Source: Myxacorys almedinensis A
GTDB taxonomy: Bacteria; Cyanobacteriota; Cyanobacteriia; Leptolyngbyales; Leptolyngbyaceae
Length of the DNA: 64,000 bases
Assembly: GCF_010091945.1 (NCBI RefSeq)
Contig: NZ_WVIE01000001.1
Span: forward strand, 186,001 to 250,000
Direction of reading: 5' to 3'
Part shown: positions 2,830-35,512 of the stretch, piece by piece
How positions within the stretch are numbered: position 1 is the first letter of the stretch
How the letters are laid out: each line of letters begins with the position of its first letter
Made by a program: the position numbers and the translations under genes
Notes under the pieces: generated by a model
What the model was told of the DNA's origin: nothing
The model's database searches: none
What the model saw: only the letters and a program-made list of their open reading frames with translations

Positions 2830-2973
2830 CATCACCGAAGGCATGGAGCTTGTGTAAGGTTTTGGCGAGTGGTGCGAATCTATATCCAAAATCATCCTGC
2901 TAACTGCTAAATGCTACCGCTTCTAGAAATTTCCAATGCCTTACCATAAAGACAGACTTATCGGTCACCCATC

Positions 2974-3549
2974 ATGGCAAAGCATAAAAAAGGCAAACCA
3001 GAATGGATCAAAGAAACCCTCGACCTCAAAGACGATCATCGCTGGCAGTCGAAACCAGGCTACAAGATCTTTGTGGCTGATCGTGGTGCTGTCCGGTTGG
3101 ATGTGCCTCAAAACTGGATCTTTGAGCCAGATACCAAATCCTTTCGATTTCTAGATGCCGACCCTCCCAACGACAACTGCCGCCTCGAAGTCTCGTTCAA
3201 TCGGCTCCCCCAAGGTGACTGGAGCATGTTTCCCCTCAAGCACACCCTAAAGAACATCTTGGCTGACGAAGAGCGAGAGGTAATTTCGATCGGGGAGATC
3301 ATCACCGAAAAACGCCAAACAGCCCGAATTGTCTGGGCAGAAGTAAAATTTATGGACTCGGAGGAACACCGAGAAGCCTTTTCCCGGATTTGCATTGGCT
3401 TGGGGTCAAATGTTCAATGTTTGATCACGTTTGACTATTGGGTAGACGATGCAGAAAAACTGACGCCGGTTTGGGATGAAGTGCTGCGATCGCTGGTTCT
3501 CGGTCTCTACATTCGCGATCCTATGACCGGGCTTGCTTTTCCCGATTAA
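2974..3549 (+). CDS. Conserved hypothetical protein
   Basis: 191 aa ORF, ATG start, coding-like composition; no family recognised. Confidence 0.65.
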   Translation: MAKHKKGKPEWIKETLDLKDDHRWQSKPGYKIFVADRGAVRLDVPQNWIFEPDTKSFRFLDADPPNDNCRLEVSFNRLPQGDWSMFPLKHTLKNILADEEREVISIGEIITEKRQTARIVWAEVKFMDSEEHREAFSRICIGLGSNVQCLITFDYWVDDAEKLTPVWDEVLRSLVLGLYIRDPMTGLAFPD

Positions 3550-3629
3550 CTTTATTGCTCTTTAAACCATGCTAATCACTGATCCTGTCGCGGCTCCTAC
3601 GGGTGAAAACGTAACTTAGACCCATGGGA

Positions 3630-3749
3630 TTAGTCTTTGGGGTTGCTCACGATGATGCGCCATGTGACAAACAGGGTGAACGCCACAAAACTCCAAACGA
3701 CAACGGCATCTTGCCAATTCTCAAGAAAGCCCACGCGATCGCTCATCAT
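3630..3749 (-). CDS. Putative small single-TM protein (39 aa), not in the ORF track
   Basis: Manual translation: MMSDRVGFLENWQDAVVVWSFVAFTLFVTWRIIVSNPKD. One hydrophobic segment; 12 bp downstream of the mnmD-like gene on the same strand. Confidence 0.4.
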   Translation of the reverse strand: MMSDRVGFLENWQDAVVVWSFVAFTLFVTWRIIVSNPKD

Positions 3750-3761
3750 GCTGCCCTCAAT

Positions 3762-4667
3762 TTATGAAATGCCCCAGCGTCGCCGCCAGCTTGAAGTCGA
3801 TTCTACCGTTACCGATCGCTGCTCCTGAGCCTGCCTTGCCAAAATGGTCTCTGCCCCATCGTTTAAGCAGGGGTCACGATACGGAATCGCCGCACGAGTC
3901 TGCAAATGTTCTTGTTCCATCTGCGACAACGGCTCTAGCAGTTCCCCGCCCCAAGCCGCGATCGTGCCCTGTGCCCAATCGTGGGAACCATGCACCTCAC
4001 CGAGGGGAATCGTCCCAATCTTAAGCCCTGCTTCGATCAGAGCCGTTCGCACCGACGCCGATCGCGAATAGGTCGAAAGGATTCCAGTTTGCGCCAAGCA
4101 GCTTGCAACGCGCTGAAAGAAGTCTACCGTCCAAAGCTGTGGACATCGACGGGGAGAAAACGGATCAAGGAAGATTGCATCCGCCTGAAATCCTCCCTGC
4201 ATCAAGCTTTGAATAGTTTGTCGAGCATCCCCAATCAACACTCTCGCTTCTAGAGTTGAGTGCTGACAGACCTGATGCTTTGCTAACGTCGTTAAGACCT
4301 CCTGAATGGGTGCTGCCCAAGGCTCAAGCAATGCGATCGCACTCATCGGAACGGTGGCATCTAGTTCCAACCCATAAAGCTCAACTCGGCACGCTGGATT
4401 GACAGCCCAAATAACTTCTAAAGCCGCCGCCGTGTTGTAGCCCAATCCATAACAAACGTCCAGCAGTTTAAGGCTAGGCTGTTGAGCCTTCTGTGCTAAC
4501 CGAGTTGCATCTGCAAACTTCTGAAAAGCTTCTGTCTTTGCCCCTTGGCGGCTATGGAAGGCTTCGCCAAATTCGCTGGAAAAGAAAGTATAGGAGCCGT
4601 CTTGAGTGAGGAGGTGAGTCCAAGACATTGGAGAGACATCACGAGAGCATCGTGCAGTAGAATTCAT
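3762..4667 (-). CDS. mnmD: MnmD/MnmC-like tRNA (5-methylaminomethyl-2-thiouridine)-methyltransferase domain protein
   Basis: TxDGSxTFxSxxFGExFHSxxGAxxEA...LLDVCYGLGYNTAAALE and DAIFLDPFSPRRCPQLWT motifs of the family. Confidence 0.8.
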   Translation of the reverse strand: MNSTARCSRDVSPMSWTHLLTQDGSYTFFSSEFGEAFHSRQGAKTEAFQKFADATRLAQKAQQPSLKLLDVCYGLGYNTAAALEVIWAVNPACRVELYGLELDATVPMSAIALLEPWAAPIQEVLTTLAKHQVCQHSTLEARVLIGDARQTIQSLMQGGFQADAIFLDPFSPRRCPQLWTVDFFQRVASCLAQTGILSTYSRSASVRTALIEAGLKIGTIPLGEVHGSHDWAQGTIAAWGGELLEPLSQMEQEHLQTRAAIPYRDPCLNDGAETILARQAQEQRSVTVESTSSWRRRWGIS

Positions 4668-33019: not shown

Positions 33020-35266
33020 ATGCCAGAAGAGCCGACACCAAAGCCAGATAAGCAGGAAGAAAAGTCACCCTGGAACGAGAAACTGGCTGAACTTTTGATC
33101 AAAGCTGCGATCGGGGGTGGGGCAGGCACAGTCATCACGTTGCTTAGCAGTACCGAACTCCCTAGATTAGCCTTGGGTGCAGGAATTGGCGGGGCGGCAA
33201 CGATGGTTTATGCCTTTGTTGAACCGATCGCGAAACGGACAAATAAGGGCTTAGGTCAAGCCGGAGATAAAACGGCGGATGCGATCGGCAAGAAAACAGA
33301 GCAGGTAATCGCGACGCTCACATCAGCAGAAGACCGCTACTTTACCGCGCAGTCGCAGGAGTGCAAGTATTGCCGCACAGAGGGCATGGCAAAGGTCGAA
33401 GGGATTTTCACACCCATGCTGGAGAAGGTGTATGTACCCCTAGAACTCGATCGCAGTGCCTTTCGACCTGGGTTAATGAGCGATGTTGCTAAGTCCGGCA
33501 GATTTGATGAGACTGACTCTGATCGTTTGACCCGTTTAGATATTTGGAAACTGCTGGCACAAACAGAAAAAGATTTAATTTACCGTCGCCTTGTGATTTT
33601 GGCGTGGGGTGGGTATGGCAAAACGACGTTGCTGAGGCATTTGGCATTTACTTATGGGCAAAACCAGCAAGGCTCCGGGTTACCGCGTCTAGTTCCGATT
33701 TTGCTGCTGCTGCGAAAGTATCGTGAAGAGTTGACCCAAGAAAATCCGCTGAGTCTGCCTGATCTGATTGCTCAAAAGCACATTCCAAATTTGCCGGAGG
33801 GAGCAACGCTGAGGATGTCACCCGACTGGGCAAAAAACATTCTCAGGCGCGGCGATGCTTTGGTATTGGTGGATGGCTTTGATGAAGTGCCAAAAGCTCA
33901 ACGTCCCCAAGTGGCGCGGTGGTTAAACGAGCAAATGCGACACTATGGCAAATCAACGTTTATTTTGACATCGCGACCCAAAGCTTACCAAGAGCAGGAT
34001 CAGGCGATGGATACGTTAGAGCTAGAGACGATCTTGTGGGTGAAAGACTTTCAGGAGAAGCAGCGACGGCAGTTTGTGGAGCAGTGGTATTGGTGTCAGG
34101 AATATTATCACCACGGCAAGGAGGATACGCCTGATATTCGCAGAGAAGCGCAACGATCGGCAGATGAATTGCTAGCGCAAATTGAGGCGCGATCGGAGCT
34201 AAAAGATCTTGCCAAAAACCCGCTATTGCTGAATATGATGGCGACCTTTCATCGGCGCTATCCCAGTGCAGAACTGCCTCGACGACGAGTGGAACTCTAT
34301 CAGGAAATGTGTGTGTTGCAGTTGCGCGATCGCCCAGGGGCAAGGCGGCTAGAAACCATTTTGGGATACGAGGAGGCGCTGGTAATTTTGCAAATGCTGG
34401 CGCTAGAGATGATGCAGCAGCACGATGAGCAGGTCAGCCAAGAGGTGATTTTGCGACGGCTGACAACCTATCTGACAGAGCAAGCGGAAACGGTTTCAGC
34501 CGCAGATTTTCTCAGGCATATTGAGCAGGTGAGCGAATTACTGGTTCAGCGAGAACCCGAAGAGTATGAGTTTTCGCACCTGAGTTTTCAGGAATATCTT
34601 GCAGCTAAAGAAATCATTCGACTGAAGCGGGAAAGCGTTTTGTACCAACATTTCGAGGATGGCTGGTGGAAGCCGACGATTTTGCTCTATGCGGCGCAAA
34701 CTAACCCGACTACGTTAATTCGGCAAGCGATGCAACAAGGCGCAACCGACCTTGCTTACACCTGCTGGCAAGACACAACCAAACGGGTGAACCTAAACGA
34801 TGCTGAGCTAGAAGTGCTGACCCAGTTGACCCCAACGCTACAAACCTCGCGCTACCAAACGCTAGAAGATTTGCTGAAGTCTGGGCAGTGGCGCGACGCA
34901 GACCAGGAAACCTATCGGCTGATGATTACTACCGTGGGCAAAGAAGAAGGGCAATACTTCGAGCCGGCTGATCTAGAAAATTTCCCTTGCGATGACCTGC
35001 GGACTCTGGATCAACTGTGGTTACGGTACAGTAACGGCAAATGGGGCTTCAGCGTCCAGAAACAAATCTGGCAGGAATGCGGTAGCCCAACGGAGTATAG
35101 TGACGGCTGGGAAAAGTTTGGCGATCGCGTCGGGTGGCGCAAGGACGACGACTGGGTGGATTATGACGACTTAACCTTTGACCTCCAAAAAACTCGGAGC
35201 GGAGAATTTCCCAGGGAAATACGGGGAAGTGTTCTCTTTTCTCGCGCAGAGACTTGTGAACTTTAG
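33020..35266 (+). CDS. NACHT-domain NTPase with C-terminal GUN4 domain
   Basis: Gly-rich hydrophobic N-terminus; Walker A LAWGGYGKTTLLRHLA; Walker B DALVLVDGFDEVP; STFILTSRP; FSHLSFQEYLAAKE; C-terminal GUN4 signature ADQETYRLM...DLENFPCDDLRTLDQLWLRYSNGKWGFSVQKQIW. Confidence 0.88.
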   Translation: MPEEPTPKPDKQEEKSPWNEKLAELLIKAAIGGGAGTVITLLSSTELPRLALGAGIGGAATMVYAFVEPIAKRTNKGLGQAGDKTADAIGKKTEQVIATLTSAEDRYFTAQSQECKYCRTEGMAKVEGIFTPMLEKVYVPLELDRSAFRPGLMSDVAKSGRFDETDSDRLTRLDIWKLLAQTEKDLIYRRLVILAWGGYGKTTLLRHLAFTYGQNQQGSGLPRLVPILLLLRKYREELTQENPLSLPDLIAQKHIPNLPEGATLRMSPDWAKNILRRGDALVLVDGFDEVPKAQRPQVARWLNEQMRHYGKSTFILTSRPKAYQEQDQAMDTLELETILWVKDFQEKQRRQFVEQWYWCQEYYHHGKEDTPDIRREAQRSADELLAQIEARSELKDLAKNPLLLNMMATFHRRYPSAELPRRRVELYQEMCVLQLRDRPGARRLETILGYEEALVILQMLALEMMQQHDEQVSQEVILRRLTTYLTEQAETVSAADFLRHIEQVSELLVQREPEEYEFSHLSFQEYLAAKEIIRLKRESVLYQHFEDGWWKPTILLYAAQTNPTTLIRQAMQQGATDLAYTCWQDTTKRVNLNDAELEVLTQLTPTLQTSRYQTLEDLLKSGQWRDADQETYRLMITTVGKEEGQYFEPADLENFPCDDLRTLDQLWLRYSNGKWGFSVQKQIWQECGSPTEYSDGWEKFGDRVGWRKDDDWVDYDDLTFDLQKTRSGEFPREIRGSVLFSRAETCEL

Positions 35267-35512
35267 CACGAGCCAGTCCTAGACATTTTTTAAACTTTGT
35301 AAACGCTCTTCTTTTACACGATTTACCTACCTTTTGGCGATCCGTTACCTGGCACTGCGTTAGTTGGTTAACTTGTTGTAGCTGGTTAACTTGTAGTCGG
35401 TGGCAGGTCAGGGTTCTGGCTATTAGTAATGAGATCGGATGTCTGTGTCAATAGCAAGTCTGACGAGTGAGCATCAGGAAAGCTGACCTGAGAAGGTTTC
35501 GCCCGTTCTTCA

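Follow-up and report, generated by a model that had tools for sequence, protein, structure and literature searches.

The bNACHT and Avs proteins are antiphage STAND proteins with a central NACHT domain carrying Walker A and Walker B motifs, an NLR-like fold and variable termini (PMC12169576, PMC10907252). Fusions of GUN4 to conflict effectors have also been described (PMC7159879, PMC8195603). In the work of Kaur et al. (2020/2021), GUN4 is a module on conflict effectors (VMAP ternary, TIR, caspase and kinase fusions), and one study puts it forward as a sensor of tetrapyrroles in the conflict systems of cyanobacteria (PMC7159879). Diversity-generating retroelements (DGRs), which consist of a reverse transcriptase and a template repeat, diversify sensor domains at the C-terminus of conflict proteins, among them STAND and NACHT proteins, also in cyanobacteria (PMC10907252, PMC7517822). 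The RAYT (TnpA_REP) proteins are domesticated Y1 transposases; they have a Y1_Tnp domain with HUH and Tyr motifs, and are found in one or two copies per genome (PMC6006769).

We analysed a NACHT-GUN4 gene of a family that shares traits with each of these systems. It lies in the window, i.e., the whole stretch of 64,000 nucleotides of Myxacorys almedinensis A that was analysed, where it runs from ATG to TAG. Its features are as follows.

33020..35266, + strand: NACHT-GUN4 coding sequence, 748 aa (open reading frame and Pfam).
33092..33148, + strand: first hydrophobic Gly-rich segment, residues 25-43, candidate transmembrane or amphipathic helix 1 (hydropathy, position kept in homologues; low pLDDT).
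33167..33223, + strand: second hydrophobic Gly-rich segment, residues 50-68 (position kept in homologues; low pLDDT).
33611..34087, + strand: NACHT NTPase, residues 198-356, Walker A GGYGKTTLL, Walker B LVLVDGFDE (PF05729; Walker residues).
34088..34789, + strand: post-NACHT helical part (NLR-like helical/winged-helix) to the GUN4 linker (Foldseek; pLDDT mostly >85).
34844..35212, + strand: GUN4 domain, residues 609-731, ending with the GEFP anchor codons (PF05419, PDB sequence matches).
35201..35212, + strand: GEFP anchor (GGAGAATTTCCC), the final conserved codons before the tail, equivalent to GGACACCTCCC/GGAGAATTTCC of relatives.
35213..35232, + strand: hypervariable tail, with 20 nt a short one in this gene (placed by comparison with 84-121 relatives).
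35233..35355, + strand: conserved DNA block (TCTCTTTTCTCGCGCAGAGACTTGTGAAC ... GATCCGTTACCTGGCAC), which at its beginning codes for the final residues and provides the stop.

The protein is a bacterial NLR-like NACHT switch with a GUN4-fold C-terminus. Pfam matched NACHT (PF05729, residues 198-356, E 2.4e-15, 57.2 bits for a cut-off of 26.7) and GUN4 (PF05419, residues 609-738, E 3.7e-38, 131.3 bits for a cut-off of 29.2), and the N-terminal hydrophobic hairpin gave no Pfam domain above its cut-off. A PDB sequence search with the C-terminus returned the GUN4 structures of Thermosynechococcus and Synechocystis (E 6e-16 to 3e-12). The AlphaFold model, built from 31 homologues, had a mean pLDDT of 80 and a pTM of 0.73, with low confidence in residues 1-100, and its best PDB folds in Foldseek were NLRC4, NLRP3 and NOD2 (E 4e-12 to 1e-10). 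Among the 31 homologues the Walker residues G197, G198, G200, K201, T202 and D285 are invariant, and the hydrophobic segments 25-43 and 50-68 keep their position in nearly all. A sequence-only reading of the window had already given the correct boundaries of the frame and recognised the NACHT, the GUN4 and the Gly-rich hydrophobic N-terminus; the Pfam scores far above cut-off and the GUN4 structures returned for the C-terminus agree with it. The protein differs from bNACHT and Avs in having GUN4 with a hypervariable tail, and a Gly-rich hairpin rather than a known enzymatic effector.

We found homologues (E ≤ 1e-20) in 254 of 390 cyanobacterial genomes. Among the matches listed, roughly 90 extend through to the GUN4 end, and many relatives have the N-terminal and NACHT parts in common, followed by frames of 880-1250 aa instead of GUN4. 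The GUN4 end of the same kind was found on TIR, kinase, caspase and NACHT proteins, and one NACHT-GUN4 homologue (L134:3505-6009, - strand) has a TIR-like domain in place of the hydrophobic hairpin. This natural domain swapping, which the sequence-only reading had proposed to survey, backs together with the domain hits and the NLR-like fold the layout it suggested: an effector or anchor, a NACHT switch and a GUN4 sensor. The fusion itself is of a known type and widespread in cyanobacteria. The genome of the window encodes four more NACHT proteins above the Pfam cut-off (L004-L007, contigs C24, C6, C33 and C85), in frames of ~1180-1230 aa and without GUN4. Searches for GUN4 in phages found none.

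We rejected an assignment to the defence system PD-T4-6 of PADLOC. The match (9e-39) was confined to residues 541-734, i.e., the GUN4 end, and Pfam found no kinase domain. As it matches GUN4 only, the PD-T4-6 model seems to include GUN4-bearing kinases. PDLC04062 can thus give false defence calls in cyanobacteria when it matches a GUN4 end without a kinase.

The genome of the window has only two GUN4 genes. The canonical chlorophyll GUN4 has an ordinary helix-like end, with neither tail nor block. Its C-terminal helix (GHLP-LTNQLRGVRVMASLMAHSAW) is missing from the window protein, where a variable tail takes its place. In relatives this tail spans 13-160 nt, from the conserved GxxP codons (GGACACCTCCC or GGAGAATTTCC) up to the block. 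Its composition (A 0.14, C 0.10, G 0.44, T 0.32) amounts to about 75% G+T (0.72-0.76), equally at all three codon positions, and the upstream coding sequence has a near-even third position. Since the bias is equal at all codon positions, a biased process explains the tail best, rather than codon selection. Each stop codon (TAA, TAG, TGA) includes an A, so that a stretch made of G and T only is free of stops. Of 121 tails, 119 stay open into the block, although high G/T by itself already favours open frames.

Tail hypervariation between relatives is established. Among 13 gene pairs with upstream identity >0.8, tails were unrelated in 12 and identical in one. The plasmid NZ_CP060823.1 of Cylindrospermopsis curvispora carries four GUN4 genes that are 86-98% identical over the upstream 300 nt and 97-99% identical over the downstream 120 nt, with tails of 33, 39, 65 and 82 nt that are only 26-49% identical. 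Both flanks and both junctions are near-identical in this quartet and only the tail differs; therefore, the tails changed after duplication. On the same plasmid (L300, L301) six genes are annotated as GUN4, of which one follows a MoxR ATPase gene, and two genes annotated as transposases lie convergently to GUN4 ends. Turnover is not constant, as two species (L082 and L086) share an identical 60-nt tail although their upstream DNA is only 92-93% identical, which suggests selection on, or transfer of, that particular tail. The near-identical plasmids of Tolypothrix PCC 7601, PCC 7712 and NIES-3275 were discarded as a test of tail variation: their GUN4 gene has no block and the ends shown are identical.

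The origin of the tail letters was sought in nearby DNA and, for one genome, in the genome itself. Similarity to nearby DNA did not exceed that of shuffled controls, except weakly in L098. The G/T-rich tail of G269 matched itself and weak low-complexity sequences in its own genome, with no good donor. The 141-nt tail of L035 (before position 3757) resembles an internal NACHT-coding segment (EFEFSHLSFQEFLAAME) at ~73% nucleotide identity, and judging by this similarity at least one tail may be templated. Two tails hold a second copy of the GHLP segment.

The sequence that follows the tail is conserved as DNA. Homologues end in LLSHRDL, LFSRIETCKL or SLASRLVNCSR, which the comparison of 3' ends identified as the three reading frames of one sequence, TCTTCTCTCGCATCGAGACTTGTAAACTGTAGCA. 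The frames of entry into this block are used 32/29/28 times in 89 genes (42/45/32 in a larger set), and its conservation is therefore not due to coding. Every frame reaches a stop within about 40 nt, and the block extends over ~120 nt, to GATCCGTTACCTGGCACC. Allowing up to 3 mismatches, we found the pattern in 66 of the 390 genomes, in 1-3 copies each, and the reversed pattern in none of them; the copy at 35233-35355 is the only good one in its genome. GUN4 was directly upstream at all 30 sampled sites, and all 65 proteins scanned had GUN4, on TIR (18), kinase (16), NACHT (15) or caspase (11) proteins. The last ~18 codons of the gene and the next ~90 nt are neither ordinary coding sequence nor an ordinary 3' UTR.

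These observations bear on two other accounts of the gene end. A dispensable C-terminus might just drift by neutral decay, next to a block that is an ordinary 3' UTR element, acting for example in RNA stability or termination. The persistence of the block in genomes without the transposase described below, that of the window included, would fit this account. Yet, where flanks are 86-99% identical, drift cannot have made unrelated tails of different length between them, and it cannot give a G/T bias that is specific to one strand. Within the block, RNAalifold found neither a consensus hairpin nor a consensus RNA structure for either strand. We therefore regard neutral decay as very unlikely. 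The second account builds on the role of GUN4 as a tetrapyrrole sensor, which the sequence-only reading also put forward: the domain would bind porphyrin or bilin and control NACHT, the tail being an irrelevant degenerate end. It agrees with the GUN4 fold and with the conservation of many core residues, but the tail stands in for the canonical C-terminal helix, and an irrelevant end leaves the G/T bias at all codon positions and the three-frame conservation of the block unexplained. We find it somewhat unlikely in this form. Both readings may nonetheless hold at once, with a tetrapyrrole bound in the pocket and a different signal read by the tail. Within the sensor it is probably the tail that varies, a part that the sequence-only reading overlooked.

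At 26 of about 72 block loci the block is followed by a convergent gene of the Y1 transposase family (PF01797, 2.3e-17), often about 126 nt downstream. The next clusters of neighbours recur in at most 6 of these loci. When loci were chosen by Y1 alone, GUN4 was convergently upstream in 29 of 30, the 30th being at a contig end, and in named genomes Y1 adjoins GUN4 in 68 of 72 informative loci. The HUH and Tyr motifs are kept in all 71 complete Y1 frames. Y1 and the block co-occur across the 390 genomes (34/32/31/293; Fisher p 1e-13, inflated by shared ancestry). These computations establish the linkage of the block and GUN4 to Y1. The linked Y1 has 1-2 copies per genome, as do the RAYTs, but it adjoins GUN4 3' ends (or cyanobactin precursors) and a linear block, and not dispersed REP palindromes. 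The block elements, with their 1-3 copies per genome, are not dispersed repeats and show no consensus hairpin of the REP type. Two Y1 genes, in L292 (~3036-3867) and L290 (~2905-3886; both in reverse-complement coordinates), lack GUN4 and lie beside other conflict-type genes, respectively a patatin-like neighbour and a TIR protein, whose 3' ends are also G/T-rich.

The linkage has exceptions. Among 84 analysed tails, 45 have no adjacent Y1, and we found no Y1 of the linked subfamily in the genome of the window. The latter agrees with the earlier suggestion of a stand-alone gene among housekeeping neighbours. The tail of the window protein, which has 20 nt and begins REIRGSV, is probably frozen for the same reason, and the protein itself is probably a stable descendant of the system. 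Tail G/T is 0.83 next to an intact Y1, 0.78 without Y1 (p 0.10) and 0.70 next to a broken Y1 (p 0.02 relative to intact), which is only suggestive of a role of Y1.

The neighbourhood also weighs against rewriting of the tail by a DGR. Local hypervariation at the C-terminus of sensor domains is what DGRs produce in STAND proteins, but here Y1 is the sole recurrent neighbour at the ~72 block loci, and hence no reverse transcriptase recurs there. With a single copy of the element, the genome of the window has no pair of template and variable repeats, and the tail searched against its own genome had no good donor. The length of the tails is free, and their signature is G/T richness instead of A-to-N substitution. 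A DGR is hence extremely improbable as the source of the tails.

More distant Y1 members (about 60-67% identity) sit within cyanobactin clusters; loci with a Y1 of the same broad subfamily in such clusters are L191, L193, L195, L196 and L202. The precursors beside these Y1 genes have near-identical leaders and different cores, e.g., QVEAQ-SLQVVIYGGYI-PFAGDDAE and QVEAQ-LFWFSP-PFAGDDAE. Since Y1 adjoins both GUN4 tails and cyanobactin precursors, a single Y1 lineage has links to two hypervariable coding segments that are unrelated to each other. Like the GUN4 tails, the precursors of anacyclamides and piricyclamides have a short hypervariable coding segment with fixed flanks and an adjoining transposase gene. 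They differ in that the cyanobactin protein is a peptide precursor with the core inside the frame, whereas the GUN4 protein is a sensor with the variable part at the end of the frame. For the sph and art clusters, a transposase lying between genes E and F has been mentioned in passing (PMC6162287, PMC4663559).

Taken together, the GUN4 tail is replaced as a unit over evolutionary time while both flanks stay, and we consider it slightly more probable than its opposite that the protein is an NLR-like receptor whose GUN4 sensor has a tail rewritten at a fixed block by means of the linked Y1. Y1 enzymes (IS200/IS605) act on single-stranded DNA, which they cleave and religate by way of a 5'-phosphotyrosine, and the cut leaves the 3' end free. 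As the putative catalyst, the linked Y1 would cut single-stranded DNA at the block, just 5' of TCTTCTCTCGC, freeing the GUN4-side 3' end. This end would undergo non-templated, G/T-biased extension and trimming, and then be rejoined. Insertions of any length or frame would still give a finished protein, because the block stops all three frames and a G/T-only sequence has no stops. New sensor tips would thus be continually supplied to TIR, kinase, caspase and NACHT effectors, and a hypervariable tip common to four effector types looks like a scheme of receptor diversification. By analogy with NLRs, the GUN4 end would act as sensor and the NACHT as switch, and the hydrophobic N-terminal hairpin may be an effector or a membrane anchor. 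The tail may be a ligand-binding tip, and the receptor may act in immunity or defence. A hairpin in the target is the usual recognition feature of Y1 and RAYT enzymes. The simplest form of the mechanism is thus weakened by the lack of a hairpin in the block, by the many tails without Y1 and by the genome of the window without Y1.

The main rival to diversification by Y1 is that the tail is a by-product of transposition. The GUN4 end, the block and Y1 would then form a mobile C-terminal cassette, and the tail would be a scar without selected function, in which every transposition or repair leaves other filler DNA at one junction. Such a cassette would account for Y1 travelling with GUN4 across different effectors, for the 3' anchor CGATACCTGGCAC that also lies beside a distant Y1 with multiple copies in its genome, and for the duplicated anchor segments inside some tails. 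It fits poorly with the Cylindrospermopsis quartet, with the open frames of nearly all tails (subject to the effect of high G/T noted above), and with the cyanobactin precursors, a second and unrelated hypervariable target that carries the same broad Y1 subfamily. We therefore think a by-product unlikely. A broader proposal is that cyanobacteria have domesticated a Y1 HUH enzyme of the IS200/RAYT-like kind for the targeted generation of diversity: random, G/T-rich tails free of stops on GUN4 sensors and, in a related branch, the hypervariable cores of cyanobactins. We hold it tentatively, as having a little less than an even chance.

The combination of tail, three-frame block and dedicated Y1 suggests a system that matches none of the known hypervariation systems we found. 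Unlike DGRs, the GUN4 tails come without reverse transcriptase or template repeat, have variable length, are G/T-rich and are linked to a Y1 HUH enzyme. The accessible parts of Kaur et al. make no mention of a hypervariable tail, a three-frame block or a Y1 linkage for GUN4 proteins, and our search of the open-access journal literature found no report of the tail. If our inference holds, there would be a second kind of targeted hypervariation in bacteria beside retroelements, based on a transposase and on junction-like additions of variable length. The hypothesis is directly testable in culturable cyanobacteria. If true, its logic would be comparable to V(D)J junctional diversity, here applied to proteins similar to innate immune receptors. 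One branch of the RAYT-like transposases would then have a function, and there would be a candidate mechanism for the hypervariable cores of cyanobactin precursors, which have been noted for a long time.
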